Shown here: positions 7,521 through 44,585 of the stretch, piece after piece
Numbering within the stretch: position 1 is the stretch's first letter
Layout of the letters: the number at the start of each line of letters is the position of its first letter
NCBI RefSeq assembly: GCF_021287135.1
Contig: NZ_JAJTBB010000085.1
Location: 1-64,000 of the forward strand
Direction: 5' to 3'
From: Acidovorax sp.
GTDB lineage: Bacteria > Pseudomonadota > Gammaproteobacteria > Burkholderiales > Burkholderiaceae_C
Length of the DNA: 64,000 nucleotides
Program-made: the position numbers and the translations under genes
The notes under the pieces: model-generated
The model's database searches: none
Told to the model about the DNA's origin: nothing
The model's input: the letters and a program-made list of their open reading frames with translations, nothing else

Positions 7521-9923
7521 ATGACCGATTTTGCCCCGCTTTCCGCCGCCAAACGCTGGGCCCTGGGATCCACCACCGACAAGCCTCCCGCCTCCGTGGG
7601 GCGATTCATATTGCAGCGCCAGCTGGGCCGCAGCGCGCAGGCCAGGGTGTGGCTGGCGCGCGATCCGCGCCTGGAGCGCGACGTGGTCATCAAGCTGCTG
7701 CCGCCCCTGCCGCAAGAAGATCCGCTGCTGCTGGCGCAGTGGCTGCGCGAGGCGCGCCATGTGGGGCGGCTGGCACACCCCTTCATCGTGCCGGTCTTCG
7801 AGGCCGATGTGCAGGGCCGCCAGCCCTTCCTCGTCTTCGAGTACGTGCCGGGCTGCACGCTGGCCGAGCACCTGGCGCAGCAAGGCCGCTGCGCCCCGCA
7901 CGACGCCGTGGCTCTGCTGGTGGACGTGCTCGACGGCCTGCAGGCCGCGCATCAGGCGGGCATCGTGCACCGCGACCTCAAGCCCTCCCACATCATGATC
8001 GACGCCCAGCGCCATGCCCGGGTGATGGATTTCGGCATGGCCGGGCCGGTGGCTCCGGCGGCGTCTGCCGGCACGCCCGCCTACCAGGCGCCCGAGGCGG
8101 CCGCCGGGGCTGTGTCCACGCCTGCCATGGACGTGTATTCCGCCGCGCTGGTGCTGCTGGAGATGCTCACCGGCCAGCCGCCGGCCCCGGCGGGGCGCCA
8201 GGAGGCGCCGGGGCCCGCGGCCGATCTGGGGCCGGGCGCGGACGACGGGTTGCGGGCCATCGTGCAGCGGGCGCTGGCGCGCGAGCCCGGCGGCCGGTAC
8301 GCGTCGGCGGCGGAGTTCCGCGACGCCCTGCGCGCCTGGGCCGCGCCCGCCAGCGCGCCCACGGCCGCCAGCAACGCGACGCTGGATTTTCTGCTGCGCC
8401 GCATGCGGCACAAGAGCGACTTTCCGGCGCTGTCGGACTCGGTGGCGCGCATCCAGCGCGTGGCCACGTCTGAAGACGACAGCATCAGCGACCTCACGCA
8501 CGAAATCCTCAAGGACGTGGCCCTGACCCACAAGCTGCTGCGCCTGGTCAACAGCGTGCACTACGCCCACGCGAGCCGGGGAACCATCAGCACCGTCTCG
8601 CGCGCCGTGAGCCTGGTGGGGTTCAACGCCGTGCGGAACATGGCGCTGAGCCTGGTGCTGCTGGACCACATGCAGGACAAGGCGCATGCCAGCCAGATGC
8701 GCGAGGAGTTCCTGCGGGCCATGATGGCCGGCTCGGTGGCGGCGGAGCTGTGCGCCACGGCCCAGGCGGCCGAGGAGGCGTTCATCGGCGCCATGTTCCA
8801 GAACCTGGGCCGCATGCTGTGCGAGTTCTACTTCCCCGAAGAGGCGCGGCAGGTGCGCGCCTTGCTGGCGTCTGGCCGGGTGCAGGGTGAAGAGTCGGCG
8901 GCGCTGCAGGTGCTGGGCCTGGGGTTTGAGGACCTGGGCGTGGGCGTGGCCCGCGTCTGGGGGCTGCCCGAGAGCCTGCAGCGCTGCATGCGCAAGCCGC
9001 TGGGCTCGCCCACGCAGCGGCCGCCGGAGCAGGGCGCCGAGCGGCTGCGGTGGGTGGCGCTGGCTGCCAACGAGGTCGCCGGCACGCTGCTGGCGAACGA
9101 TCCTGCGCGGGTGGCGCCCCTGCTGGGCCAGATCGGCACCCGCTATGCGCGCACCCTGGGCCTGTCCGCCGAGGCGATCGGGGAGGCCACCCTGCGCGCG
9201 CGCCACAAGCTGGTGGCCCTGGCCGACGCGCTGGAGCTGCGGGTGGAGCCCGGGTCGGCGGCGGCCCGGCTGCTGCAGCTCCCGGCGGCGGCGCAGGACG
9301 GGGCGCTGGCGCCGGACGACGGGCTCGAACCCCTGGAGCTGCGCGCCAGCACCGCCCCGGCGCTGCCCACGGTGCTGCAGCCGCAGGCCGGTGGCGCCGT
9401 GTCGCTGGCGCAGGTCCACGACGTGCTGACCGCCGGCATCCAGGATGTGACCAACGCCATGGTCGAGACCTTTCAGCTCAACGACGTGCTGCGCATGATC
9501 CTGGAAACCATGTTCCGCGCCCTGGGCGTGCGGCGCATGGTGTTCTGCCTGCGCGAAACCCGCAGCGAGACGCTGACCGGGCGCTTCGGCCTGGGCGAAG
9601 GCAGCGAAGCCGCGGTGCGGGCCATGAAGATTCCCCTGCGGGCCGCGGGCGACCTGTTCGCCACCGTGTGCCTGCGCGGCGCGGATACGCTGATCAACGA
9701 CGCGGCCGACCCGCGCATGCAAGCCCGTTTGCCGCCGTGGTACCGCGCGGGGCTCAACGCGCCGTCGTTCCTGCTGCTGCCGCTGCAGATCAAGGGGCAG
9801 ACCTTCGCGCTGATCTACGCCGACCAGGCCGTGCCCGGGGGCATCGTGGTCGATGACAGGGCCCTGGGCCTGCTGCGGACCTTGCGCAACCAGGCCGTGA
9901 TGGCCTTTCGCCAGGCCGGCTGA
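7521..9923 (+). CDS. Ser/Thr kinase-like, HDOD and GAF fusion protein
   Basis: An 800-residue three-part signalling protein. Residues about 28-275 form a Hanks-type kinase fold with Lys58 (VVIKLL), HRDLKP at 150-155, DFG at 170-172 and a TPAYQAPE segment. About 287-490 is an HDOD domain. About 635-795 resembles a GAF sensor domain. Two kinase signatures deviate: the glycine loop reads LGRSAQARV, keeping only the first glycine, and the metal-binding Asn after HRDLKP is His157. It may be a weak kinase or a pseudokinase that senses a ligand and acts through HDOD. rodA follows 48 bases later in the same direction. Confidence 0.87.
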   Translation: MTDFAPLSAAKRWALGSTTDKPPASVGRFILQRQLGRSAQARVWLARDPRLERDVVIKLLPPLPQEDPLLLAQWLREARHVGRLAHPFIVPVFEADVQGRQPFLVFEYVPGCTLAEHLAQQGRCAPHDAVALLVDVLDGLQAAHQAGIVHRDLKPSHIMIDAQRHARVMDFGMAGPVAPAASAGTPAYQAPEAAAGAVSTPAMDVYSAALVLLEMLTGQPPAPAGRQEAPGPAADLGPGADDGLRAIVQRALAREPGGRYASAAEFRDALRAWAAPASAPTAASNATLDFLLRRMRHKSDFPALSDSVARIQRVATSEDDSISDLTHEILKDVALTHKLLRLVNSVHYAHASRGTISTVSRAVSLVGFNAVRNMALSLVLLDHMQDKAHASQMREEFLRAMMAGSVAAELCATAQAAEEAFIGAMFQNLGRMLCEFYFPEEARQVRALLASGRVQGEESAALQVLGLGFEDLGVGVARVWGLPESLQRCMRKPLGSPTQRPPEQGAERLRWVALAANEVAGTLLANDPARVAPLLGQIGTRYARTLGLSAEAIGEATLRARHKLVALADALELRVEPGSAAARLLQLPAAAQDGALAPDDGLEPLELRASTAPALPTVLQPQAGGAVSLAQVHDVLTAGIQDVTNAMVETFQLNDVLRMILETMFRALGVRRMVFCLRETRSETLTGRFGLGEGSEAAVRAMKIPLRAAGDLFATVCLRGADTLINDAADPRMQARLPPWYRAGLNAPSFLLLPLQIKGQTFALIYADQAVPGGIVVDDRALGLLRTLRNQAVMAFRQAG

Positions 9924-9959
9924 GGCCGGCCGGGCGGGGGCTGTGCGGTGCGCGCCCCC

Positions 9960-9965
9960 GATAAT
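9960..9965 (+). promoter_or_regulatory. possible -10 box directly before rodA
   Basis: GATAAT ends six bases before the rodA start codon and no ribosome binding site lies between. If used, it would give a nearly leaderless rodA mRNA. There is no recognisable -35 box at the usual distance. Confidence 0.35.
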
Positions 9966-9971
9966 TGCGCC

Positions 9972-11144
9972 ATGGCCGTCGTTTTTGATAAACCCACGCT
10001 CGCCCAGCGTTTTGTCCCGCTGTTCCGCGGGTTCGATCTTCCCCTCATCCTGGTCGTGCTGCTGTTGGCCTGCGCCGGGCTGCTGGCCATGTATTCCTCC
10101 GGCTACGACCACGGCACGCGCTTTGTGGACCACGGGCGCAACATGCTCATTGCCGCGGCCATCCTGTTCATGGTGGCCCAGGTGCCGCCCCAGAAGCTGA
10201 TGGCGCTGGCCGTGCCGCTGTATGCGGCGGGCGTGGCCTTGCTGGTGGCGGTGGCGCTGTTTGGCATCACCAAGAAAGGGGCGCAGCGCTGGATCAATGT
10301 CGGGGTGGTGATCCAGCCCAGCGAGATTCTCAAGATCGCCATGCCGCTGATGCTGGCCTGGTGGTTCCAGAAGCGCGAAGGCACGCTGCGCCCGCTGGAC
10401 TTTGCTGCCGCCGGCCTGCTGCTGGCCATGCCCGTCGGGCTCATCATGAAGCAGCCGGACCTGGGCACCTCGCTGCTGGTGCTGGCGGCGGGGCTGTCGG
10501 TCATCTTCTTTGCCGGCCTGTCCTGGAAACTGGTGCTCCCGCCCGTGCTCATCGGCGGAGCCGGGGCCCTGGCGCTGGTGCTGCTGGGCGACCAGCTGTG
10601 CGCCGACGGCGTGCGCTGGGTGGTGCTGCACGACTACCAGCAGCAGCGCATCTGCACGCTGCTGGACCCCACGCGCGACCCGCTGGGCAAGGGCTTTCAC
10701 ATCATCCAGGGCATGATCGCCATCGGCTCGGGCGGCCTGTGGGGCAAGGGTTTCATGGCCGGCACCCAGACGCACCTGGAGTTCATTCCCGAGCGCACCA
10801 CGGACTTCATCTTCGCCGCGTTCTCCGAGGAGTTCGGCCTGGCGGGCAACCTGTTCCTGATCGTGTGCTTCCTGCTGCTGGTCTGGCGCGGGCTGGCCAT
10901 TGCGGCGGGCGCCACCACGCTGTTCAGCCGGCTCATGGCCGGCGCCGTATCGATGATCTTTTTCACCTACGCCTTTGTGAACATGGGCATGGTCAGCGGC
11001 ATCCTGCCCGTGGTGGGCGTGCCCCTGCCATTCATCAGCTATGGCGGCACGGCCATGGTGACGCTGGGCCTGGCCCTGGGCATCCTGATGTCGGTGGCCC
11101 GCGCGCAGAAGCAGGAGCCGCAGGAGGCGCCGCCCGCGCTGTAA
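9972..11144 (+). CDS. rodA: rod-shape SEDS glycosyltransferase RodA
   Basis: A 390-residue SEDS-family integral membrane protein (about ten segments) that polymerises lipid II during cell elongation with a class B PBP. Conserved blocks are GAQRWINVG..IQPSEILKIAMPLML, MKQPDLGTSL, and FIPERTTDFIFAAFSEEFGL, whose TDF aspartate is the catalytic one in the family. A late VGVPLPFISYGGTAM block follows. The SEDS partner penicillin-binding protein and mreBCD are not in this window. The start at 9972 is the only sensible methionine near the N terminus and lacks a ribosome binding site. Confidence 0.94.
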   Translation: MAVVFDKPTLAQRFVPLFRGFDLPLILVVLLLACAGLLAMYSSGYDHGTRFVDHGRNMLIAAAILFMVAQVPPQKLMALAVPLYAAGVALLVAVALFGITKKGAQRWINVGVVIQPSEILKIAMPLMLAWWFQKREGTLRPLDFAAAGLLLAMPVGLIMKQPDLGTSLLVLAAGLSVIFFAGLSWKLVLPPVLIGGAGALALVLLGDQLCADGVRWVVLHDYQQQRICTLLDPTRDPLGKGFHIIQGMIAIGSGGLWGKGFMAGTQTHLEFIPERTTDFIFAAFSEEFGLAGNLFLIVCFLLLVWRGLAIAAGATTLFSRLMAGAVSMIFFTYAFVNMGMVSGILPVVGVPLPFISYGGTAMVTLGLALGILMSVARAQKQEPQEAPPAL

Positions 11145-11243: not shown

Positions 11244-12728
11244 ATGACTTCCCGCTCCCCCCTTGCCGCGCCGCAGCGCGCAGCCACCAGCCAGCGCATC
11301 GACATTGCCCGTGAACTCCTGCTGACGCCTTTCGGGCTCGACGAGAGCCACCTGGCCCGGGCGCTGGCCGAGATTCGCGCCCACCGGGTGGACGACGCCG
11401 ACCTGTACTTCCAGTACACGCGCAGCGAGGGCTGGAGCCTGGAAGAGGGCATCGTGAAGACGGGCTCCTTCAGCATCGACCAGGGCGTGGGCGTGCGCGC
11501 GGTGAGCGGCGAGAAGACGGCCTTCGCCTATTCCGACGACATCTCCGAGGCCTCGCTGCTGGATGCCGCCCGCACGGTGCGGTCAATTTCGGCTGCAGCC
11601 CAGGGTGGTAAAGCGCGAGTAGCTCCTAAAAAGATAGCTGCAGCGCGCAGCCTCTACCCCGGTCTGGACCCTATCGCCTCGCTGGACAGCACCGCCAAGG
11701 TGGCGCTGCTGGAAAAGCTGGAGCGTCGGGCCCGCGCCAAGGACCCGCGCGTCGTCCAGGTGATGGCGGGCCTGGCCAGCGAATACGACGTGGTGCTGGT
11801 GGCGCGGGCGGACGGCACGCTGGCCGCCGACGTGCGTCCGCTGGTGCGCCTGTCGGTGACGGTGATCGCCGAACAGAATGGCCGGCGCGAGATGGGCTCG
11901 GCCGGCGGTGGCGGCCGCTTCGGCCTGGCGTATTTTGATGACGAGCAGATGGGCCGCTACGTGGACGAGGCGGTGAACGCTGCCCTGGTGAACCTGGAGT
12001 CGCGCCCCGCCCCTGCGGGAGAGATGACCGTGGTGCTGGGCTCGGGCTGGCCCGGCATCCTGCTGCACGAAGCCGTGGGCCATGGGCTGGAGGGCGACTT
12101 CAACCGCAAGGGCTCCAGTGCCTTCAGCGGCATGATCGGCCAGCGCGTGGCGGCTAAGGGCGTCACGGTGCTGGACGATGGCACCATCGCCGACCGCCGG
12201 GGCTCGCTCAATGTGGACGACGAAGGCCATGCAAGCCAGCGCAACGTACTGATCGAGGACGGCATCCTCAAGGGCTATATCCAGGACGCGCTGAACGCGC
12301 GCCTGATGGGCGTGGCGCCCACCGGCAACGGCCGGCGCGAAAGCTATGCCCACATCCCCATGCCGCGCATGACCAACACCTACATGCTGGGCGGCGACAA
12401 GGACCCGCAGGAAATCATCGCCAGCATCCAGAAGGGCCTGTACGCCAGCAACTTCGGCGGCGGGCAGGTGGACATCACCTCCGGCAAATTCGTGTTCTCC
12501 GCCAGCGAAGCCTACTGGGTGGAAAACGGCAAAATCCAATACCCCGTCAAGGGCGCCACCATCGTCGGCAGCGGCCCCGAGTCGCTCAAGAAGGTGACGA
12601 TGATCGGCAACGACATGCGCCTGGACAGTGGCGTGGGCACCTGCGGCAAGGAGGGCCAGAGCGTGCCCGTTGGCGTGGGCCAGCCCACTTTGCGCATCGA
12701 GGGGCTGACGGTGGGGGGCACGGCTTGA
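11244..12728 (+). CDS. tldD: metalloprotease TldD
   Basis: A 494-residue cytoplasmic subunit of the TldD/TldE zinc protease, which digests unfolded peptides and in other bacteria matures microcins. The zinc motif HEAVGH lies at residues 275-280, and GHGLEGDFNRKGSSAFSG plus the late RIEGLTVGGTA are typical. The partner gene (pmbA/tldE) is not in the window, as is usual. About residues 114-132 are encoded by a degenerate copy of the dispersed repeat, placed between conserved VRSI and SLYP. The frame stays open through it. It is the last conserved gene before the lower-GC island. Confidence 0.95.
   Translation: MTSRSPLAAPQRAATSQRIDIARELLLTPFGLDESHLARALAEIRAHRVDDADLYFQYTRSEGWSLEEGIVKTGSFSIDQGVGVRAVSGEKTAFAYSDDISEASLLDAARTVRSISAAAQGGKARVAPKKIAAARSLYPGLDPIASLDSTAKVALLEKLERRARAKDPRVVQVMAGLASEYDVVLVARADGTLAADVRPLVRLSVTVIAEQNGRREMGSAGGGGRFGLAYFDDEQMGRYVDEAVNAALVNLESRPAPAGEMTVVLGSGWPGILLHEAVGHGLEGDFNRKGSSAFSGMIGQRVAAKGVTVLDDGTIADRRGSLNVDDEGHASQRNVLIEDGILKGYIQDALNARLMGVAPTGNGRRESYAHIPMPRMTNTYMLGGDKDPQEIIASIQKGLYASNFGGGQVDITSGKFVFSASEAYWVENGKIQYPVKGATIVGSGPESLKKVTMIGNDMRLDSGVGTCGKEGQSVPVGVGQPTLRIEGLTVGGTA
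11583..11636. repeat. dispersed palindromic repeat, degenerate copy inside tldD
   Basis: Aligned with the copy at 21.66 kb it keeps ctgcagc, then 11 bases, then aagcgcgag.agct and a final aaaa.atag at identical spacing. The left half of the palindromic core has decayed. It is read in frame within tldD. Confidence 0.55.
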
Positions 12729-12762
12729 GCGGGGTGCTCTGCCCGCAGGGAGCCGCGCGCGA

Positions 12763-12787
12763 TGCCACGCAGCCGGTCTGCGTGGCA
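12763..12787. terminator. hairpin at the tldD/island junction
   Basis: A perfect 10-base inverted pair, tgccacgcag and ctgcgtggca, encloses ccggt. It follows the tldD stop by 35 bases. It has no U tract on either strand, so it is a terminator-like or repeat hairpin rather than a clear intrinsic terminator. It sits where the lower-GC island begins. Confidence 0.4.
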
Positions 12788-12855
12788 CCGGCCGGCTTCC
12801 GGGTGGATTAGGTGGCCGCCGAATGCAGCGCCCTGACCTGGCTGGCAGTCGACAA

Positions 12856-14046
12856 ATGAAACCAAGCGGGAGTTCCAAAAGCGCTCGTCGTGGAGGGGCG
12901 TCCTTTTGCCTGGCCTTTCTGGTGGCCGGTGGCGCGGCGCATGCACAGGCGTGCTACCCGGCTCCCGCCGGTGGAAAAAACGTGCCGGTACGCAGCCTGT
13001 ATGTCATCGCGGGACAGTCAAATGCCGTGGGGCTTGCCACTGTCAAGGATTTTGTGTCCGGGAAATTCGATCAGGTCCGCAGTGGCGTAGCGTACCAAAA
13101 TGTGAAGATTTACGGCGTACGCGGCGCGCCCATCGGCGTTGCGGGCAATGACGATGAGAGAAAATCAGCGCGTGTCCGCTGGAGCGAGTACGCGCAATGG
13201 CATGTCGCCCAGGCCGGATTTGGATACAAGAATTTTTCGGAAAATGCACGTTACTTCCCCTTCGGAGTGAGCGCGGGAGATTTTTTTGGCCCCGAGCTTT
13301 CGCTGGCATCCATGCTGAACAATAAGCCTCCGCAGGATAGCTATATTGCCAAGCTGGCGGTGTCGAACACGTCGCTGCACTTTGACCCGGCCGCAGACAG
13401 CTGGAGTCCTTCGGGGCGGCTTTACGCTGAGTTGCTGAGATTGATTGCCGAGGCTCACAATTCGAAAAGAAAGAGTGTGCGTCTGAATGTCGCCGGGATA
13501 TTTTTCATGCAGGGAGAAACAGATGCCCTGCATGAGGCGTGGGCGAAGGAATACAAGAGCAATATTCAAGAGTTTGTGAGGAAAATCCGGGGGGATCTTT
13601 ATCGCATGGGGTGTACTGAAGATCCCGATGTGCCGCTGGTTGTCGGCAGGATCCAGGACAACAAATTGTGGACGCATCGGAAATACGTTCGCTCTGCGCA
13701 AAATGAATTGGCCCGATCTTTCAGCAAGGTTGAGGTCATTGACACGGATGAGTTTTCGGATCACCTGGTCGTTGGCGGGGTGCACTTCGATGAATATGCG
13801 CAATTTACCCTTGGAAAGAAGGTGTTCCAAGCCTTCGAAAGGCTGGGCGCGCAAAAGAGCAGAGATTCTGGCCCTCGAGCGAATAGGGAGACGGATGCCC
13901 AGCGGGCCGCGATGATCGATGGCATCTGGGAATTTCATTGCTGCGATGCAGAAGCCGGGCGGCGCTGGCTCACTCAGGGTGCACTCCCCGTGACTTATCG
14001 ATACGATGGCGTTTGCAAGAGTGCTTCGTGCGCGGTCATTTGGTAG
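12856..14046 (+). CDS. exported SASA-type (sialate O-acetylesterase-like) esterase
   Basis: A 396-residue protein with a signal peptide (basic start, hydrophobic core, AHA-QA cleavage near residue 30). The fold signature is SGNH-like of the SASA/DUF303 type: YVIAGQSNAVGLA with the nucleophile serine, FFMQGETDA in the middle, and GGVHFDEYAQFTLG supplying a likely catalytic histidine. Such enzymes remove acetyl groups from sugars. Base composition is low (29 of 60 bases G+C at 13441-13500, against 40 of 60 at 12061-12120 in tldD), suggesting acquisition. The following carbamoyltransferase begins 55 bases later, so the two may act on one glycan, but the substrate is unknown. The start at 12856 fits the signal peptide. 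Confidence 0.8.
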   Translation: MKPSGSSKSARRGGASFCLAFLVAGGAAHAQACYPAPAGGKNVPVRSLYVIAGQSNAVGLATVKDFVSGKFDQVRSGVAYQNVKIYGVRGAPIGVAGNDDERKSARVRWSEYAQWHVAQAGFGYKNFSENARYFPFGVSAGDFFGPELSLASMLNNKPPQDSYIAKLAVSNTSLHFDPAADSWSPSGRLYAELLRLIAEAHNSKRKSVRLNVAGIFFMQGETDALHEAWAKEYKSNIQEFVRKIRGDLYRMGCTEDPDVPLVVGRIQDNKLWTHRKYVRSAQNELARSFSKVEVIDTDEFSDHLVVGGVHFDEYAQFTLGKKVFQAFERLGAQKSRDSGPRANRETDAQRAAMIDGIWEFHCCDAEAGRRWLTQGALPVTYRYDGVCKSASCAVIW

Positions 14047-14101
14047 GTCTTGCTGGTGTGCTGGCAAGTGCACCCGGATGAATTTGAATAAGGCGTAAGC
14101 T

Positions 14102-15931
14102 GTGAATATATTGGGGATTTCTTCGTATTACCACGATAGCGCTGCTGCGCTGCTGCGTTCGGGTGAGATCATCGCAGCCGCGCAGGAAGAGCGATTCACG
14201 AGAAAGAAGCACGATGCGGGGTTTCCCAGCAATGCGGTCCAATATTGCCTTCAGGAAGCAGGGGTTGATGTACGGTCCCTGGATTCGATTGTCTTCTATG
14301 ACAAGCCTATTTTGAAATTCGAGCGGCTGCTGGATACCTATCTCAGCTATGCGCCGCGGGGATTCAAGTCGTTCGTCACCGCATTGCCGGTGTGGCTCAA
14401 GGAAAAGCTCTATCTGAAGCGGACGCTCCAGAAGGAGCTTGCGGCCCTGCTGGAGTGTCAGGAGGCCGATCTGCCTCCCATTCTTTTCTGCGAGCACCAT
14501 GAGTCCCATGCTGCATCGGCTTTCTACCCCAGCCCGTACGAGAACGCAGCAGTGTTGTGCCTGGATGGCGTGGGGGAATGGGCAACCACCTCGGCATGGA
14601 TGGGGCAAGGGGCGGAGCTGAAGCCGTTGTGGCAACTGGATTTTCCGCACTCTCTGGGGTTGCTTTATTCTGCTTTTACGTATTACCTAGGGTTCAAGGT
14701 GAATTCTGGGGAATACAAGCTGATGGGGCTGGCGCCATACGGCAAGCCGGTTCATGCTCAACTGATACGAGAAAATCTTCTGGATCTCAAAGACGATGGT
14801 TCATTTCGCCTGAATCTGGATTATTTTGACTATTGCACCGGTCTGCAAATGACAAATCAGAAGTTTGCTGATTTGTTCGGCGCGCCTCCCCGCGGCCCGG
14901 AAAGCGTGCCCACGCAACGGGATATGGACCTGGCTGCCTCTATCCAGGTGGTCACGGAGGAGGTGGTCCTCAAGCTGGCCCGGCAACTCAGAAAAGAGAC
15001 AGGCGCGGACTACCTCTGCATGGCGGGTGGTGTGGCGCTCAATTGCGTCGCCAACGGTCGTTTGTTGCGAGAAGGGATTTTCAAGGACATCTGGATCCAG
15101 CCCGCGGCGGGGGATGCGGGGGGGGCGTTGGGCGCTGCCTATGCCGCGTACCACACCTATCACAAGAAGGAACGGGCTTACGTGCCCGGGGGCGACCGCA
15201 TGCAGGGATCGCTGCTGGGCCCGCGCTACACCGAGCAGGACGTCGTCTCAACCCTTGACAAGCTGGGGGCCCGCTACTCGGTGATGGAGATGGACGAGCT
15301 GTATGACGTCGTCGCGGGCCTGCTGGCGGAGGAAAATGTCGTGGGCTGGTTCCAGAACCGGATGGAGTTTGGCCCTCGCGCCCTGGGGGCGCGGTCCATC
15401 CTTGCGGACCCCCGCTCCAGTGCCATGCAGTCGCAGTTGAACTTGAAAATCAAGTTTCGCGAGTCTTTCAGGCCTTTTGCCCCAGCGGTCAAAGAGGAGG
15501 CGGTCGGGCAGTATTTCCACTTGGACAGACCGAGCCCCTATATGCTTCTGGTGGCACAGGTCCACGATACCATCCGGCACGAGCCGAACGAGCAGTTGCA
15601 GGGGCTGGAGCAGCTTTACCAGACCCGCTCGAGCATTCCCGCGGTGACCCACGTTGACTACTCTGCACGGGTGCAAACCGTGAACGAGCAAAGCAATCCG
15701 GAGTTTTATCGGTTGTTGAGCGCTTTTGAGCGAAAGACGGGGTGTCCTGTCTTGGTCAACACCTCCTTCAATGTGCGCGGAGAGCCCATCGTGGGGTCTC
15801 CAGAGGACGCTTTCCGTTGTTTCATGGGTACGGACATGGACTATCTGGTGCTCGGAAATGTCCTCCTGAAAAAGGCGGAGCAGGCAGATCTGAAAATTGC
15901 CCCCCGCACAGGGGCGTTGGCCCTGGACTGA
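14102..15931 (+). CDS. NodU/CmcH/SxtI-family carbamoyltransferase
   Basis: A 609-residue enzyme of the O-carbamoyltransferase family, which moves a carbamoyl group from carbamoyl phosphate onto a hydroxyl via a carbamoyl adenylate. The Kae1-like N-terminal half begins MNILGISSYYHDSAAALL and carries the metal-binding HHESHAASAF motif near residue 137. The YrdC-like C-terminal half includes FGPRALGARSILADPR and NTSFNVRGEPIV. The start is GTG. It is the first gene of a tight run of four (gap of 4, overlap of 1, gap of 4 bases). Family members decorate Nod factors, antibiotics, saxitoxin and glycans; nothing here identifies the acceptor. Confidence 0.93.
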   Translation: MNILGISSYYHDSAAALLRSGEIIAAAQEERFTRKKHDAGFPSNAVQYCLQEAGVDVRSLDSIVFYDKPILKFERLLDTYLSYAPRGFKSFVTALPVWLKEKLYLKRTLQKELAALLECQEADLPPILFCEHHESHAASAFYPSPYENAAVLCLDGVGEWATTSAWMGQGAELKPLWQLDFPHSLGLLYSAFTYYLGFKVNSGEYKLMGLAPYGKPVHAQLIRENLLDLKDDGSFRLNLDYFDYCTGLQMTNQKFADLFGAPPRGPESVPTQRDMDLAASIQVVTEEVVLKLARQLRKETGADYLCMAGGVALNCVANGRLLREGIFKDIWIQPAAGDAGGALGAAYAAYHTYHKKERAYVPGGDRMQGSLLGPRYTEQDVVSTLDKLGARYSVMEMDELYDVVAGLLAEENVVGWFQNRMEFGPRALGARSILADPRSSAMQSQLNLKIKFRESFRPFAPAVKEEAVGQYFHLDRPSPYMLLVAQVHDTIRHEPNEQLQGLEQLYQTRSSIPAVTHVDYSARVQTVNEQSNPEFYRLLSAFERKTGCPVLVNTSFNVRGEPIVGSPEDAFRCFMGTDMDYLVLGNVLLKKAEQADLKIAPRTGALALD

Positions 15932-15935
15932 CGAA

Positions 15936-16349
15936 ATGGTGAAGATGGCAAATAAAGATGTCGTTGAGAGGGCGGAGCTGCGCAAGTTCGGCTATGTCAT
16001 GGCCGGATTTTTCGGCCTGGTGGTCGGTGCGCTTCTGCCGTGGTGGTGGTCGCTCAAGTGGGCCTATTGGCCATGGCTTGTGGCAGCATTTTTTTTGGTC
16101 CTTGCCGTTCTCTGGCCTTCTGCACTGGGCGGCGTGCACCGGTATTGGATGCGCTTTGCGCGGTTTCTGGAATGGATCAATACACGGATTGTCCTGGGGG
16201 TAGTGTTTTTCCTGGTGTTTACCCCCCTGGGTTTTGTGATGCGGTTGTTGGGCCGGGATACCCTCAAAAAGTCGTGGGACCGCGGGGCGAGCACCTACCG
16301 GACGGACCGGCAATCAAGAAAAGAAAATCATATGGAAAGGCAATTCTGA
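15936..16349 (+). CDS. SxtJ-family membrane protein
   Basis: A 137-residue protein with three to four hydrophobic segments (about 20-40, 45-65 and 90-115). It has a basic N terminus with ELRKFGYVMAGFF and a C-terminal LLGRDTLKKSWDRGASTYR motif, both characteristic of proteins named after SxtJ of the saxitoxin cluster. The biochemical role is unknown; members are typically encoded next to carbamoyltransferases, as here. It begins four bases after that gene's stop and overlaps the next gene by one base, so co-translation is likely. A second possible start lies at 15945. Confidence 0.85.
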   Translation: MVKMANKDVVERAELRKFGYVMAGFFGLVVGALLPWWWSLKWAYWPWLVAAFFLVLAVLWPSALGGVHRYWMRFARFLEWINTRIVLGVVFFLVFTPLGFVMRLLGRDTLKKSWDRGASTYRTDRQSRKENHMERQF

Positions 16350-16501
16350 TGTTGGAACTTGTGAAGGAGCTTTTCCTTTTTTTCCGCGAGCACAAGAGGT
16401 ACGTCTTGATTCCCATCTTGCTCGTCCTGCTGTTGCTGGGGACCTTGATTGTCTTTGGCCATGGCTCGGTTTTTGCGCCGTTTATCTACACTTTGTTCTG
16501 A
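16349..16501 (+). CDS. DUF5989-like small membrane protein
   Basis: A 50-residue protein (MLELVKELFLFFREHKRY start) with one strong transmembrane helix rich in leucine and isoleucine and a short aromatic tail ending APFIYTLF. The FLREHKRYVLIPI-type block matches my memory of the DUF5989 family, often found with SxtJ-like proteins. Its ATG overlaps the upstream TGA by one base and the next gene starts four bases after its stop. The size and single helix suggest a membrane adaptor or complex stabiliser for the carbamoyltransferase; that role is inference. Confidence 0.82.
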   Translation: MLELVKELFLFFREHKRYVLIPILLVLLLLGTLIVFGHGSVFAPFIYTLF

Positions 16502-16505
16502 TCGA

Positions 16506-17654
16506 ATGAAAAAGATTGCTTACATACTGCTGCCCTCGCTGGTTTTGTGCGGACTGGTGGCGGCGGGGTATGGGGTAGGCCGTTATGTGGCGGGTGAGCG
16601 ATTCAGAAACGTCGTCATGTGGGTGGAAAAGGGCGAGAACCTTGCGAGCGTCTTGGCCGTCACGCCGTTGAATGATGAGCAGCGCAAAAACTACGCAAAA
16701 GCGTACACGGCCGCTTCTGTCGACGCGGGTGCCATCAGTTGGTCGGTTCCGAACCAACCCACCCCCTTTGTCGGAACGGCGCCTTCGCCGGGGCACCATC
16801 TCAACGCTTACATCAACTCCTGGCAAATGCGAAACAAGCAGGAGTTGCAAATGCCAAAACAGAAAGGCGTTTACCGCATCTTTTTGACGGGTGGCTCCAC
16901 GGCGTATGGCTCGGGCGCGCCCAGCCAGGAGTCGACGATCGGCAGCTTGTTGGAAAAACGGCTGAATGATGAGCTTTCCCAGAAAAGAAACCTGCATTAC
17001 GAAGTCTTCACGTTTGCGAATCCTGCCTGGGCTTCCACGCAAGAGCGGATTGCTATTGAGAACTATCTTTCGGAGTTGCAACCAGATCTGATTTTGTCTC
17101 TCTCGGGGAACAACGATGTTTTCTGGGGGGATGCGGGCCGCAATGTGCTATGGTTCAGCGCCTTTGCCGATGACTACTACCGGACATTGGCCAACGAGGG
17201 CCTGCGGATGGCCGGCCGCAAGGAGTTGGCGGATCTGCCGCAGGCGAAGCCTGTTGAGGGGCCGGTGCCGTCGGATATGGTTGCGTATCGATTGGAAAAG
17301 AATACGCGGTTGGGCGCGCACGCGTTGAAAGACAAGGGCGTGCCATGGGTTTTCTTCCTGCAGCCAACGCTTTCCGTGACAAAAAAGCCTCTTACGCCGA
17401 GGGAGCGGGACTTCTTGTCCAAATCCAAGGCGTACTATGAAGAGTGCTATCAAGCCATCGTTAAAAGACTTTCCTTGGTGGATGCCCGCAATTTCAAGTT
17501 TGTGAATTTGGCGGGAGTTTTTGATCAGTACGGTTCTGCGGAAGACATGTTCCTGGATCAATTTCATTTCGGGGACAAGGGTAATGCTGTGATTGCCGGT
17601 GCGATGTTCACGGCGCTCCTTCCCCGGCTGAGCAGCACCCCGCAGGCCGATTGA
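16506..17654 (+). CDS. membrane-anchored SGNH/GDSL hydrolase-like protein
   Basis: A 382-residue protein with an N-terminal hydrophobic anchor (about 5-24) and a periplasmic SGNH-type domain. The four family blocks are visible: FLTGGSTAYGSG with the serine, the ANPAWAS region, SLSGNNDVFWGD with the asparagine, and DQFHFGDKGN with the Asp-x-x-His pair. SGNH domains hydrolyse or transfer acyl groups on glycans and lipids. It is the last gene of the carbamoyltransferase operon. It is different in sequence from the SASA-type enzyme at the other end of the island. The acceptor is unknown. Confidence 0.82.
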   Translation: MKKIAYILLPSLVLCGLVAAGYGVGRYVAGERFRNVVMWVEKGENLASVLAVTPLNDEQRKNYAKAYTAASVDAGAISWSVPNQPTPFVGTAPSPGHHLNAYINSWQMRNKQELQMPKQKGVYRIFLTGGSTAYGSGAPSQESTIGSLLEKRLNDELSQKRNLHYEVFTFANPAWASTQERIAIENYLSELQPDLILSLSGNNDVFWGDAGRNVLWFSAFADDYYRTLANEGLRMAGRKELADLPQAKPVEGPVPSDMVAYRLEKNTRLGAHALKDKGVPWVFFLQPTLSVTKKPLTPRERDFLSKSKAYYEECYQAIVKRLSLVDARNFKFVNLAGVFDQYGSAEDMFLDQFHFGDKGNAVIAGAMFTALLPRLSSTPQAD

Positions 17655-17745: not shown

Positions 17746-18297
17746 ATGCCCGCCACGCGCCCCAGTAGCCAGCTGCTGACGATTCAGTCGTTCGGCGACA
17801 TCAGCCGCTTCCTGCGCGAAGGGGTGGCCGATGAAGAATCGCGGCAGTTGCGCGACAGCCTGGGGGCGCTGTCGGTGCATATCGACGAGGCAGTGCGCGC
17901 ACGCCGCACCAGCCAGGACACGCAGACCATCACACGCCGCGTTGCGGCTTTGTCGCAGTGTGCCCGGGAGCACCAGCTGTTCCTGACCGGTCTGGGTTCT
18001 GCGTGGCATGCGCTCTACGAGTTTGGTGCCTACCAGCGGGCGCTGCGCGAACTGCGCCAGGCCATTGCAAGCTGGCAGCAGATGCTGGAGCACCGCAGCG
18101 CCAAGGAACGCGCGAGCTTTGACCAGTTCGAGCTGCTGGCTTGGCGCACCCTGGGCGAGGCTTTGCTGTTGGTCGACATGTACGAGCACCAGAGCAATCC
18201 CCAGAGCGATCTGCCGCAAGGTGCCGAGCCGGCGGCGCAGCCGCGGTCGGCGCTGCAGCGCGTGCGCGCGTGGTGGAAGCGCTGGCGCCGCAGCTGA
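17746..18297 (+). CDS. conserved-looking hypothetical protein
   Basis: A 183-residue soluble protein I do not recognise. It is mostly helical in character, with many charged and glutamine residues, a repeated FGxYQRALRELRQAI type pattern and a very basic end (RVRAWWKRWRRS). There is no signal peptide or membrane segment. GC and codon use match the chromosome rather than the island, so it belongs with the downstream DAHP synthase region. The start at 17746 follows a -10-like CAAAAT by six bases and lacks a ribosome binding site. Confidence 0.6.
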   Translation: MPATRPSSQLLTIQSFGDISRFLREGVADEESRQLRDSLGALSVHIDEAVRARRTSQDTQTITRRVAALSQCAREHQLFLTGLGSAWHALYEFGAYQRALRELRQAIASWQQMLEHRSAKERASFDQFELLAWRTLGEALLLVDMYEHQSNPQSDLPQGAEPAAQPRSALQRVRAWWKRWRRS

Positions 18298-41037: not shown

Positions 41038-43041
41038 TCACGCCGCCTTCAGCGCCGGGGCCGCGAACCGGCTCGCGTGGAGCCAGGCGCGGCGCAGCAC
41101 CGGGGGCGACCAGGACTCTTCGGGGATCAGCAGCAGCCGCCGCGCGCGCAGCGACTGGCCCAGCGCGATCTGGCTGGTGAGCACGGCCAGCGGAATGGCC
41201 AGGGCCAGCGGCAGGCCCACGGGCATGAGCCACAGCAGCGCGCTGCTGTCGATGGCGGCCACGCCCAGGGCCAGCAGGCCGATGACGGCGCTCATGGGGG
41301 CCAGCTGGCGCACGGCGTGGCGCCAGGGCACCGCCTGCGCTTCGCGCGGGGGCGACTTCCATTCCAGCTTCAGGCCCGTGAGGGCGATCAGCACGAACAG
41401 CGAGTGCGCCAGCATGCGGATCGGCGCCTGCAGGATGGCCAGCACGCTTTCCAGCGCGGCGCTCTTGAGCAGGCTGAAGCCGCCGCCGTACTGCTGCTGC
41501 TCGCGGCGCATGAACACGGCGGCCACGCCCAGCGCGCGGGGCAGGAACAACAGGCACAGCGTCCAGGCCCACAGCGACAGCAGCTCGGCCGGCAGCACAT
41601 GCCAGTCGGCCACCAGCCGCGCGCCCGAAAGCCACAGCGCCGTGCCCAGCGTGAGGAACGCGAGCCACAGCGGGGCCGACAGGTAGGCCATGGCGCCGGT
41701 CAGGAACATGGTGCGGTGCACGGCATGGATGCCGGGCTCGGCCACCAGCTGGGCGTTTTGCAGGTTGCCCTGGCACCAGCGGCGGTCGCGTTGCAGTTCG
41801 GCCAGCAGGTCGGGCGGCTGCTGTTCGTAGCTGCCCACCAGGTCGGCCGCCAGCCACACGTGGTAGCCCGCGCGGCGCATGAGCGCGGCTTCGACGAAAT
41901 CGTGCGACAGGATGCCGCCCGCGAGGCCCCCCTTGCCCTGGATGGGCGCCAGCGCGCAGTGCTGCATGAACGGCGCCACGCGGATGATCGCGTTGTGGCC
42001 CCAGTAGTGGGACTCGCCCAGCTGCCAGTACTGCATGCCCAGCGTGAACAGGCGCCCGGTCACGCGCGAGGCGAACTGCTGCGCCCGCGCGTGCAGGGTG
42101 ACGTGGCCGATGGCCTGGGTGGCCGTCTGGATGATGCCGGCGGTGGGGTGCGCTTCCATCAGCTTGGCCATGGAGACGATGCAGTCGCCGCTCATCACGC
42201 TGTCGGCATCCAGCACCACCATGTAGCGGTAGTCCTTTCCCCAGCGGCGGCAGAAGTCGGCCACGTTGCCCGCCTTGCGGTGCGTGCGGCGCGCGCGCAG
42301 CCGGTAGTACACCTGCACCTGCGGCTGCTGCGCGTGCTGCGCCAGCGCGGTGCGCAGCGCCTCCCAGGCCGCGCGCTCGGCGCGAACGATGGCGGGGTCG
42401 TAGCTGTCGGACAGCACGAACACGTCGAACGTGGCGCCGTGGCCGGTGGAGGCCACCGATTCGCAGGTGGCCCGCAGGCCCGCGAAGACCGTGGCCACGT
42501 CTTCGTTGCAGATCGGCATGATGATGGCGGTGCGCGCGTCCGCGGGCAGCTCGTGCTCCAACACGCTGCGCGCTGTCAGGGCGTGCCGGTCGCCCCGCAG
42601 CATCACCCAGAACCCCATCAGCCCGGTGAGGAAGCCGGTGACGACCCAGGCCGACAGCAGCGCGAACAGGGCCACCTGGCCGTAGCCCAGCCAGGCGTTG
42701 TCGTAGTCGGGCTGGACTGCGGCAAACAAGGTGCTGGCCAGCGCCGTGGCTAGCACCGTGAGCAGCGCAAACGTCCACCGGCGCTGCCGTGCGGCGCGCT
42801 GCCAGGGTTCGGCGGGCGCAGCGGCGGCGGCCGAGGCGCCGTCTGCGCCAGTGCGGCGGCCCGTGAGCCGCAGCAGCACGGCCGTGCCCAGGCTGTTCCA
42901 GAAGCCGCGCCATGGCACGGGGACCATGGAGCCGCGGTGCAGCGGCGGGGCGGTCACGGAGTTGGGGTGGCGCTCCTCGCGCAAGGCGCTGCGCCGGCCC
43001 GTGGAGGCGGAGCTCACTCGGGAAGAAGGATGTGTGTCCAT
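41038..43041 (-). CDS. opgH: glucans biosynthesis glucosyltransferase OpgH (MdoH)
   Basis: A 667-residue inner-membrane glycosyltransferase that makes the beta-1,2 glucan backbone of osmoregulated periplasmic glucans. The GT2 domain has YMVVLDADSVMSGDCIV (metal-binding aspartates), GILSHDFVEAALMRRAGY and QRDRRWCQGNLQN (the QxxRW-type block). Several membrane segments flank it. At 667 residues it is shorter than the ~847 of E. coli, mainly at the termini, which is usual outside enteric bacteria. It overlaps opgG by 28 bases. Start at 43041. Confidence 0.94.
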   Translation of the reverse strand: MDTHPSSRVSSASTGRRSALREERHPNSVTAPPLHRGSMVPVPWRGFWNSLGTAVLLRLTGRRTGADGASAAAAAPAEPWQRAARQRRWTFALLTVLATALASTLFAAVQPDYDNAWLGYGQVALFALLSAWVVTGFLTGLMGFWVMLRGDRHALTARSVLEHELPADARTAIIMPICNEDVATVFAGLRATCESVASTGHGATFDVFVLSDSYDPAIVRAERAAWEALRTALAQHAQQPQVQVYYRLRARRTHRKAGNVADFCRRWGKDYRYMVVLDADSVMSGDCIVSMAKLMEAHPTAGIIQTATQAIGHVTLHARAQQFASRVTGRLFTLGMQYWQLGESHYWGHNAIIRVAPFMQHCALAPIQGKGGLAGGILSHDFVEAALMRRAGYHVWLAADLVGSYEQQPPDLLAELQRDRRWCQGNLQNAQLVAEPGIHAVHRTMFLTGAMAYLSAPLWLAFLTLGTALWLSGARLVADWHVLPAELLSLWAWTLCLLFLPRALGVAAVFMRREQQQYGGGFSLLKSAALESVLAILQAPIRMLAHSLFVLIALTGLKLEWKSPPREAQAVPWRHAVRQLAPMSAVIGLLALGVAAIDSSALLWLMPVGLPLALAIPLAVLTSQIALGQSLRARRLLLIPEESWSPPVLRRAWLHASRFAAPALKAA

Positions 43042-44585
43042 GTTTCGCTCACAGCGTGGTTGTTGTGTTGAAGAAAGGCGCGCAGCTCGACCGGCCGGTC
43101 GGCCTTGAGACGCTGCACACGAACGGTCATGCGCCACTGCCCGGTGGCGGCGTTGCGGTAGGCGATGCTCTCCAGCACCTTGCCGTTGGCATCGCTGCTC
43201 ACCACCGCCTGCACGGGGGCGTTCTCCGGCAGGGCCTTGAGCGCGGGGCCGTCGAAATCGATCACGTACTGCGCCTGCTGGCGCAGGGCGTCGGGGCTCT
43301 GCTTGGTGTAGCCCATGCCGCGGCGCGACTGCGTGGTCCAGGCGCCAGGCGGGCGCTGCTGCTCATCGCCCTGCCAGCTCAGCTCGTAGGCAAACTCCAG
43401 CGGCTGGCCGGGGGCCGGCAGTTGGGCGGGCACCCAGTACGCGACGATGTTGTCGTGGGTTTCATCGGGCGTGTTCAGCTGCACCAGTTCCACCCGGCCC
43501 GCACCCCAGTCGTGCAGCGGCCGCACCCAGGCGCTGGGCCGGCGTTCGTACCGGGCTTCCACGTCCTCGTAGCTGGACCACTGGCGGTCGCGCTGCATCA
43601 GCCCGAAGCCCTTGGGGTTCTTGGTGGCGAACGAGGTCACCAGCGTCTGCTGCGGATTTTGCAGCGGGCGCCACAGCCACTCGCCCTCGCCCGTGGCCAC
43701 CATCAGGCCGTCGGAGTCGTGCACCTCCGGCCGGAAATCCTCCTTGCGCGGCTGGTTCTCGCCAAAGAAGAACATGCTGGTCAGCGGCGCGATGCCCAGG
43801 GTGGCAATGGGTTTGCCGGCGCCCGGGCGCACGAAGATCCGGCTGCGCACCGTGGTGGTGGTGTGCACGCCCGGCTGGATGTCGAAGCGGAAGGCGCCGG
43901 TGGCGCGGGGAGAGTCCAGCAGCGCGTACACCGTCACCTGGGTGGCCAGCGGCTCCGGGCGCACCAGCCAGAACTCCGTGAAGCGCGGAAACTCTTCGCC
44001 GCGGCCGCCCACGGTGTCGATGGCCAGGCCCCGCGCCGACAGCCCGTATTGCTGGCCCTTGCCCAGGGCACGGAAATAGCTGGCGCCCTGAAAAACCACC
44101 AGCTCGTCCTTGTACGCGCTGGTGTTGAGGTGGTTGTGCAGGCGGAACCCCGCAAAGCCCAGGTCGCCCCAGGCCTTGGGGTTCAGCGTGTTCTTGCCGT
44201 AGTCGAAGTCGGCCCGGTCGTAGGCGACGTGGCGCACGCCCTGGGGCGTGACTTCGTTGATCAGCACCGGCTCCTTCTGGTACAGGCCCAGGTGGAAGAA
44301 CATGGCCTCGAAGGGCAGCTTCTCGGCGCGCCACAGCGCCCGTTCGGGCCGCCAGCGGATGTCGCGTACGCCGTCGTAGTCCAGCCGCGCCAGGTCGGCC
44401 GGCAGTTTGTCGCTGGCTGCGCGGTACGGCTGGGCCGCACGCTCGCGGGCCAGGCGCGTGACGCTCTCGAAATCAAAGCCCTGCGCATGGGCCGTGGCGC
44501 CGGTCCACAGCACCAGGGCCACCGCCCAGGCGGGCCGTGCCAGCAGGCGCCGCGGGCGCAGGAGACGGGAGAAAACAGCTTGCAT
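43014..44585 (-). CDS. opgG: glucans biosynthesis protein OpgG (MdoG)
   Basis: A 523-residue periplasmic protein with an N-terminal signal peptide (AWAVALVLWTGATAHAQ, cleavage near 35). It branches or trims periplasmic glucans after OpgH. The family start GFDFESVTRLARERAAQPYR and the AFRFDIQPGVHT block are visible. The length agrees with E. coli OpgG (511). It is first in the operon, and opgH overlaps its end. Confidence 0.95.
   Translation of the reverse strand: MQAVFSRLLRPRRLLARPAWAVALVLWTGATAHAQGFDFESVTRLARERAAQPYRAASDKLPADLARLDYDGVRDIRWRPERALWRAEKLPFEAMFFHLGLYQKEPVLINEVTPQGVRHVAYDRADFDYGKNTLNPKAWGDLGFAGFRLHNHLNTSAYKDELVVFQGASYFRALGKGQQYGLSARGLAIDTVGGRGEEFPRFTEFWLVRPEPLATQVTVYALLDSPRATGAFRFDIQPGVHTTTTVRSRIFVRPGAGKPIATLGIAPLTSMFFFGENQPRKEDFRPEVHDSDGLMVATGEGEWLWRPLQNPQQTLVTSFATKNPKGFGLMQRDRQWSSYEDVEARYERRPSAWVRPLHDWGAGRVELVQLNTPDETHDNIVAYWVPAQLPAPGQPLEFAYELSWQGDEQQRPPGAWTTQSRRGMGYTKQSPDALRQQAQYVIDFDGPALKALPENAPVQAVVSSDANGKVLESIAYRNAATGQWRMTVRVQRLKADRPVELRAFLQHNNHAVSETWTHILLPE

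Follow-up and report, generated by a model that had tools for sequence, protein, structure and literature searches.

Here, we describe a five-gene cassette in a 64,000-nucleotide stretch of an Acidovorax sp. genome (contig NZ_JAJTBB010000085.1, positions 1 to 64,000; the window) as a candidate system for carbamoylation outside the cytoplasm. The cassette encodes, in this order, a SASA-family protein, a class III O-carbamoyltransferase, an SxtJ-family protein, the microprotein DUF5989 and an anchored SGNH enzyme (Table 1). The last four genes, of 1830, 414, 153 and 1149 bp, are separated by a gap of 4 bases, an overlap of 1 base (ATGA) and another gap of 4 bases. A sequence-only reading of this DNA had described these as a four-gene system in a block of lower guanine-plus-cytosine (GC) content. 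The open reading frame (ORF) coordinates agree with the positions and spacing given there, and Pfam matches bear out the family named for each gene, the SGNH match lying barely over the cut-off. The four genes and the low GC content are real; the block, however, begins earlier, and a fifth gene had been overlooked, i.e., the SASA gene, which comes first in all nine other five-gene copies fetched. GC content is 56.1% at 12823-17654 compared to 68.6% in the remainder of the window. All five genes are under purifying selection, with NG86 ratios of nonsynonymous to synonymous substitution rates (dN/dS) of 0.01-0.15 in two copy pairs from the genus of the window. In the same pairs, DUF5989 is the most constrained gene (0.011 and 0.021), and the SASA gene and SxtJ are the least constrained (0.09-0.15). 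No family of the PADLOC anti-phage defence models was matched by the five proteins at E 0.01.

Table 1. Features of the cassette and its borders in the window.
Feature	Position	Strand	Basis and remarks
SASA-family (sialate O-acetylesterase-like) gene	12823..14046	+	Pfam PF03629; cassette gene 1; N-terminal hydrophobic/signal-like segment
Class III O-carbamoyltransferase (TobZ/GdmN type)	14102..15931	+	Pfam and PDB matches; GTG start
SxtJ-family membrane protein, 137 aa	15936..16349	+	Pfam PF19588; hydropathy
DUF5989 microprotein, 50 aa, one predicted transmembrane helix	16349..16501	+	Pfam PF19451; charge predicts N-in/C-out
FXYXXF acyl-shuttle-like motif of DUF5989 (FIYTLF, Tyr47)	16481..16498	+	Stop codon directly after
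SGNH/GDSL-family enzyme with N-terminal membrane anchor	16506..17654	+	Candidate terminal carbamoyl transferase; weak Pfam support
tldD, left border, outside cassette	11244..12728	+	Pfam PmbA_TldD domains
Small flanking gene, function unassigned, right border, outside cassette	17746..18297	+	Homologous ATG start seen at junctions

The carbamoyltransferase, whose C-terminal domain (PF16861) occurs once in the genome of the window, matches Carbam_trans_N (PF02543; 392 bits) and Carbam_trans_C (PF16861; 249 bits) over their full lengths and has both the Kae1-like N-terminal and the YrdC-like C-terminal domain. Its matches in the Protein Data Bank (PDB) include GdmN (7vyj, E 2.9e-94) and TobZ (3ver, E 6.6e-78). 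The iron ligands of GdmN are H133, H137, D156 and D333, and its base is H27 (PMC9633730); H27, H133, H137, D156 and D333 align with H11, H132, H136, D155 and D338 of the window enzyme. The class III O-carbamoyltransferases TobZ, GdmN and NovN share the two-domain fold and the metal-site residues with the window enzyme. However, they are described as modifiers of secondary metabolites, and the available text of PMC9633730 makes no mention of membrane partners.

DUF5989 (PF19451; 75.4 bits versus a cut-off of 27) ends in F45-I-Y47-T-L-F50, an exact FXYXXF. In DltX and in MBOATs of the PatA type, FXYXXF serves as an acyl shuttle, in which the Tyr residue becomes acylated and passes the group to an SGNH partner; this shuttle was elucidated recently and is described there only for acetyl and D-alanyl groups that MBOAT or AT3 membrane enzymes hand on (PMC12148441, JBC 2025). 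Among 88 unique DUF5989 ends, taken from the better matches, Tyr is present in 88 and FXYXXF is exact in 78; the other ends are FIYTLY (five), YIYAMF (two), LIYTMF, WLYPLF and FIYPLI (one each). The Planctomycetota motif ends were read at 25 loci plus one further. Because a Lys/Arg surplus lies on the N-terminal side of the helix in 88/88 of the unique sequences, the tail is predicted to lie outside (N-in/C-out). DUF5989, thus, has the architecture of DltX, i.e., a microprotein with one transmembrane helix and a C-terminal FXYXXF outside, with the topology assigned by charge. In one locus (L062:1498-1939), two consecutive DUF5989 genes, ending in LIYTMF (the sole LIY variant) and FIYTLY, precede a single carbamoyltransferase gene.

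Such protein ends are rare. The loci used for this search contained 10,325 mechanically called ORFs of 45 aa or longer, and only two Pfam-confirmed MBOATs besides DUF5989 end in F.Y..F. At the DNA level, the pattern for the motif occurs four times across the complete window genome, compared to 11 times for a reversed control pattern; two of the three other occurrences lack a stop codon, one ends no ORF of at least 20 aa, and DUF5989 is the sole protein found there with such an end. This genome, which is 99.98% complete, has no match to the MBOAT family (PF03062) at E 0.001, so that the DUF5989 tail does not serve here as an accessory to an MBOAT.

The sequence-only reading had staked its system idea on a conserved link between the small proteins and carbamoyltransferases in other genomes, and this link holds. 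In a sample of 398 genomes of the phylum, SxtJ is present in 47, DUF5989 in 58 and the carbamoyltransferase C-terminal domain in 135. Among the 47 SxtJ genomes, 46 also have DUF5989 and all 47 a carbamoyltransferase, as do 57 of the 58 DUF5989 genomes; the sample includes close relatives, and Fisher values on these co-occurrences overstate independence. Both partners lie within 5 kb and on the same strand for at least 40 of 48 SxtJ matches, a lower bound because the count used the first 100 carbamoyltransferase places. The remaining matches have DUF5989 only (one), the carbamoyltransferase only (one) or, among the carbamoyltransferase matches listed, neither (six). Two gene orders occur, carbamoyltransferase-SxtJ-DUF5989 (at least seven, including the window) and SxtJ-DUF5989-carbamoyltransferase (at least 33). 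In a sample of 119 genomes from the phylum to which a Planctomycetota metagenome-assembled genome (MAG) belongs, 54 also have DUF5989. In 26 short loci from Planctomycetota genomes and a sister MAG, a carbamoyltransferase was found in 15 (tblastn) and SxtJ in 12 (profile), and one Planctomycetota locus (L178) has the carbamoyltransferase, SxtJ, DUF5989 and SGNH genes in the order of the window, with 25% identity for the SGNH protein. Here, a shuttle-like tail occurs almost always together with a carbamoyltransferase, and the type of enzyme that ordinarily loads tails of this sort gave no match in the genome of the window.

SxtJ (PF19588; 53.0 bits versus a cut-off of 24.4) has three hydrophobic segments and a basic C-terminal tail with the end HMERQF, and its AlphaFold2 model, which is of low confidence, places helices at 2-33, 45-59 and 61-110. 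By hydropathy, SxtJ and DUF5989 both have the sequences expected of membrane proteins, as the sequence-only reading had held. A single ORF of 738 aa encodes both the carbamoyltransferase and SxtJ in two genomes that belong to one genus (L121:8691-10907 and L122:8702-10918; 73% identical); DUF5989 comes next, and then an SGNH-like gene (identified by phmmer; the one in L121 has no Pfam match). Both genomes also carry a separate, unfused trio (L138 and L152). This natural fusion supports a contact between the carbamoyltransferase and SxtJ. Because the carbamoyltransferase part is expected to be cytosolic, the N-terminus of SxtJ would be on the inner side.

The SGNH protein has an N-terminal hydrophobic segment and matches Lipase_GDSL at 25.4 bits (cut-off 23.6) and Lipase_GDSL_2 at 28.0 bits, below the cut-off of 32.9. 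Ser131, Asn203, Asp351 and His354 are invariant in nine aligned sequences, and the protein, thus, combines the membrane anchor and the catalytic residues of the SGNH partners of MBOATs. Because DUF5989 carries the acyl-shuttle motif, the SGNH protein is a candidate for the terminal transferase. The SASA protein (86.5 bits versus a cut-off of 24.8) has S66, E232, D234 and H321 invariant in 10 sequences, and S66, E232/D234 and H321 are probably catalytic, judging by their positions. It is the most diverged cassette protein, at 40-54% identity compared with 74-83% for the carbamoyltransferase. A C-terminal extension distinguishes the SASA proteins of the window (407 aa) and of L078 (431 aa) from those of the other eight copies (334-358 aa). 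A later ATG at 12856 may be the true start of the SASA ORF in the window.

We fetched 48 contexts of the core module, a subset of the matches, and one without a carbamoyltransferase (L151) was dropped before SGNH genes were counted; six of the remaining 47 are shorter than 10 kb (L135, L143, L154, L156, L162 and L166). In 18 of these 47 other contexts and in 9/9 five-gene copies, the module has an SGNH-family gene no more than 500 bp away; this gene is on the opposite strand in L082, L120, L123 and L165. Pfam GDSL-type matches were obtained for seven of eight SGNH candidates in a first set (three over the curated cut-off; none for L121:7173-8363) and for five of five in a second set (three over the cut-off). 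On pSymB of Sinorhizobium meliloti 1021 (NC_003078.1, L205:9631-13833), an SxtJ-DUF5989-carbamoyltransferase trio (11376-13833) is accompanied by an ALGX/GDSL-like gene on the opposite strand (9631-10959); DUF5989 scores 86.6 bits, and SxtJ scores 14.9 bits, under the Pfam cut-off, and 2.6e-29 by our own profile. Carbamoyltransferase matches at E 1e-100 were obtained in 57 plasmid records, 37 of them from Sinorhizobium or Ensifer. GT2 and GH26 (glycosyltransferase and glycoside hydrolase family) genes, the former at L205:30-1727, lie ~8-11 kb from the S. meliloti trio, and this copy may, therefore, serve a polysaccharide.

In two Planctomycetota MAGs (L133 and L134), relatives of the window SGNH protein (36%) lie beside a divergent carbamoyltransferase (37%); SxtJ and DUF5989 were not found there by tblastn, and DUF5989 is present elsewhere in both genomes. 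A Leisingera plasmid (L206:1-4790) is annotated with a carbamoyltransferase, an SGNH/GDSL hydrolase and a second carbamoyltransferase C-terminal domain protein, followed by YjbH and YjbF. At L084:7901-15445, a carbamoyltransferase-SxtJ-DUF5989 trio directly neighbours genes for three SGNH-like proteins and for an MBOAT with the end FIYFDF, possibly as acylation and carbamoylation systems for one polymer.

The borders named in the sequence-only reading are correct, with tldD before the cassette, the small gene after it and, beyond, a DAHP synthase-like ORF, a label kept from that reading without a Pfam run. The SGNH gene was found in six of 47 genomes of the genus, and all six have the five-gene order beside tldD. 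The small gene is present in 43 of the 47, with or without the cassette, and tldD adjoins it in 13/13 cassette-free loci showing both flanks, with 122-142 bp between the matches (seven measured). In a family sample of 150 genomes, SxtJ occurs in eight and DUF5989 in the same eight, six of which carry the five-gene cassette. Of these six, one from another genus (L075) occupies the same tldD site and three (L076, L077 and L079) lie away from it. In the other two of the eight genomes (L080 and L081), the order is SxtJ-DUF5989-carbamoyltransferase, and GT2 genes are close by. Named carriers of the cassette are Acidovorax facilis DSM 649, A. benzenivorans, Acidovorax sp. sif1233, sic0104 and MR-S7, and Ottowia sp. 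GY511. Because its GC content is below that of the flanks in all nine other copies, the cassette appears to have arrived by horizontal transfer, perhaps repeatedly. Genome G574, from the genus of the window, has ~3.4 kb of extra sequence (L109:5349-8790) between the SGNH gene and the usual right flank, and IS200-type transposase ORFs (L077:1814-2841; one Pfam-confirmed) lie ~5 kb from a five-gene copy outside the tldD site.

Altogether, we propose, with a probability of a little under one half (roughly 0.47), that the cassette is a self-contained, horizontally moving O-carbamoylation system for an extracytoplasmic acceptor, working as an acyl-type relay in the manner of DltB-DltX-DltD and PatA-PatB, without an MBOAT. 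Carbamoyltransferases of this family make carbamoyl-AMP from carbamoyl phosphate and ATP, and the cytosolic enzyme of the cassette, in which the active-site residues are present, would do so in the first step. SxtJ would dock this enzyme at the inner membrane, as the fusion supports, and may also form the passage. The carbamoyl group would then be loaded onto Tyr47 in the outward C-terminal tail of DUF5989, as its motif suggests, and the anchored SGNH enzyme would take it on Ser131 and transfer it to a hydroxyl of the acceptor in the periplasm or cell envelope. The SASA-family enzyme might, at a guess, edit or remove groups on the same acceptor. Because several loci hold the cassette on its own, a polymer of the envelope that is generally available is a likelier acceptor than the product of one dedicated cluster, and peptidoglycan, the lipopolysaccharide (LPS) core or another surface glycan would qualify. 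Somewhat more tentatively, the carbamoyltransferase, SxtJ and DUF5989 could form a carbamoyl-tyrosine shuttle to the SGNH transferase, which would make the module a transmembrane group-transfer machine apart from MBOAT and AT3/TmAT systems.

The main rival comes from the sequence-only reading, in which SxtJ and DUF5989 are a membrane platform that just anchors the carbamoyltransferase at the cytosolic face, so that a lipid-linked or membrane-embedded substrate is carbamoylated there and later exported, with the SGNH and SASA enzymes trimming outside. The strong linkage and the fusion fit an anchor equally well, and WapO is a putative carbamoyltransferase for the LPS core of Pseudomonas (PMC8005017). 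Moreover, GT2 or GT4 matches are present in 13 of 37 contexts of at least 15 kb around other module copies, and a GT2 and a GH26 gene lie near the S. meliloti trio. Nevertheless, we consider this explanation less likely than the relay. It leaves the FXYXXF end of a 50-residue anchor without explanation, even though the Tyr residue is invariant and the tail lies outside by charge. Also, GT2 and GT4 were not found in 24 of the 37 contexts nor in any of the nine five-gene contexts in our own searches, which used home-made profiles for these two glycosyltransferase types only. These profiles are weak on two Pfam-confirmed polymerase-type GT2, with the one in the window scoring 3.5e-4 and that of S. 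meliloti going unreported; a repeat at E 1e-3 with both as queries still gave 13/37 and 0/9. For the window, the sequence-only reading had placed the cassette outside a glycan cluster, and no cluster of GT2 or GT4 genes surrounds it; the nearest match is a Pfam-confirmed GT2 of 699 aa (41041-43137, minus strand), which by its size may be an osmoregulated periplasmic glucan synthase. SxtJ and DUF5989 look like more than a membrane platform.

Two other explanations take their lead from cyanobacterial clusters. The SGNH enzyme, perhaps with the SASA protein, could be a decarbamoylase or esterase that tunes the modification made by a cytosolic carbamoyltransferase. This is the function assigned in print to sxtL (PMC2679770), and the fold neighbours of the SGNH protein are esterases and its Ser-Asn-Asp-His set is complete. 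However, the assignment of sxtL was made by homology, the same fold and triad are found in SGNH transferases (PMC12148441), and the DUF5989 tail would be left without a role, which together make a pair of writer and eraser improbable. Even less probable is that the target of the module is a small secreted molecule and not a polymer of the envelope. The sxtI-J-K-L genes do lie in a toxin cluster (PMC2679770), sxtJ-, sxtK- and sxtL-like genes are present in the suomilide cluster (PMC10157211), and a polyketide-synthase-like ORF was seen by eye upstream in L080. By contrast, no biosynthetic core genes were seen beside the cassette of the window or the five-gene copies in ORF lists inspected by eye, with Pfam run on some neighbours.

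Several points weigh against the proposed relay. It gives no account of how carbamoyl would cross the membrane, and SxtJ, across 74 sequences, lacks a strongly conserved His resembling the catalytic His of MBOATs. The topology is a prediction from charge and hydropathy. Pfam, which we take to contain a DltX family, gave no DltX match for nine DUF5989 sequences searched against all families at E up to 10; for this reason DUF5989 is not filed as DltX, and the likeness consists of a six-residue motif and the architecture. Several weak planctomycete matches stop before the tail in the profile (for instance, at 1-37, 4-38, 4-36 and 4-34) with their ends unread, and tail-less DUF5989 relatives may exist. 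Twelve DUF5989 genomes have no SxtJ match, and in genome G249 (L120) the carbamoyltransferase and SxtJ are adjacent without any DUF5989 match in the genome, a module that is either broken or working without a shuttle. In 29 of the 47 other contexts, some on contigs that end nearby, no SGNH gene lies within 500 bp, and the last step would, therefore, need supply from elsewhere. The nearest folds to the AlphaFold2 model of the SGNH protein are CgnD, esterases and hydrolases, and PatB, DltD and AlgX are not among the 50 best fold rows, a list that cannot exclude them. Lastly, the acceptor of the sxt cluster is a small molecule, and its GDSL gene sxtL is the one assigned to decarbamoylation (PMC2679770).

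The four-gene order itself is already published as sxtI-J-K-L, with a carbamoyltransferase gene of 1839 bp, sxtJ of 405 bp, sxtK of 165 bp and the GDSL gene sxtL of 1281 bp (PMC2679770); no function is assigned there to sxtJ and sxtK, and decarbamoylation is proposed for sxtL (PMC2679770, PMC2684587). The window block shares this order and, approximately, these sizes, by which DUF5989 is here equated with sxtK; in contrast to sxtI-J-K-L, the block is preceded by a SASA gene and stands alone in an Acidovorax-type bacterium. What is new here is the acyl-shuttle-like FXYXXF end of DUF5989. The literature searched, which omits most subscription journals, neither mentions DUF5989 nor pairs SxtK with DltX or FXYXXF; among the papers retrieved from it on these subjects, FXYXXF is named in PMC12148441 only. 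DltB-DltX-DltD, in teichoic acid D-alanylation, and PatA-PatB, in peptidoglycan O-acetylation, have FXYXXF at the extracytoplasmic end of DltX or the MBOAT, as in DUF5989, and an anchored SGNH partner with a Ser-His-Asp triad, as in the cassette. They differ from the cassette in that the latter has no MBOAT match, an O-carbamoyltransferase as donor, SxtJ in the membrane role and a DUF5989 protein without a DltX profile match. For WapO, we know of no membrane helpers and no set of SxtJ, DUF5989 and SGNH proteins. HypF and HypE are cytosolic proteins. HypF moves carbamoyl to the C-terminal Cys of HypE, a precedent for carbamoyl on the C-terminus of a protein (PMC9633730); carbamoyl-AMP chemistry and a partner protein that takes the group at its C-terminus are also proposed for the cassette, while the acceptor is a thiol and the pathway is hydrogenase maturation. 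WapO resembles the cassette in acting, putatively, on an envelope glycan, and its gene lies in the LPS core gene cluster (PMC8005017).

If the proposed relay is correct, the acyl-tyrosine shuttle would extend to a new chemical group, carbamoyl, and to a new membrane partner. PF19588 and PF19451, two families without a known function, would acquire a function open to testing, and the product of the module's GDSL gene would be a transferase rather than an eraser. A transmembrane group-transfer machine of the kind outlined above would also explain the small genes without a known function beside O-carbamoyltransferases in many bacteria, and the modification would be widespread yet overlooked, given DUF5989 in 58/398 and 54/119 sampled genomes. 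The model strain S. meliloti 1021 carries the three core genes.

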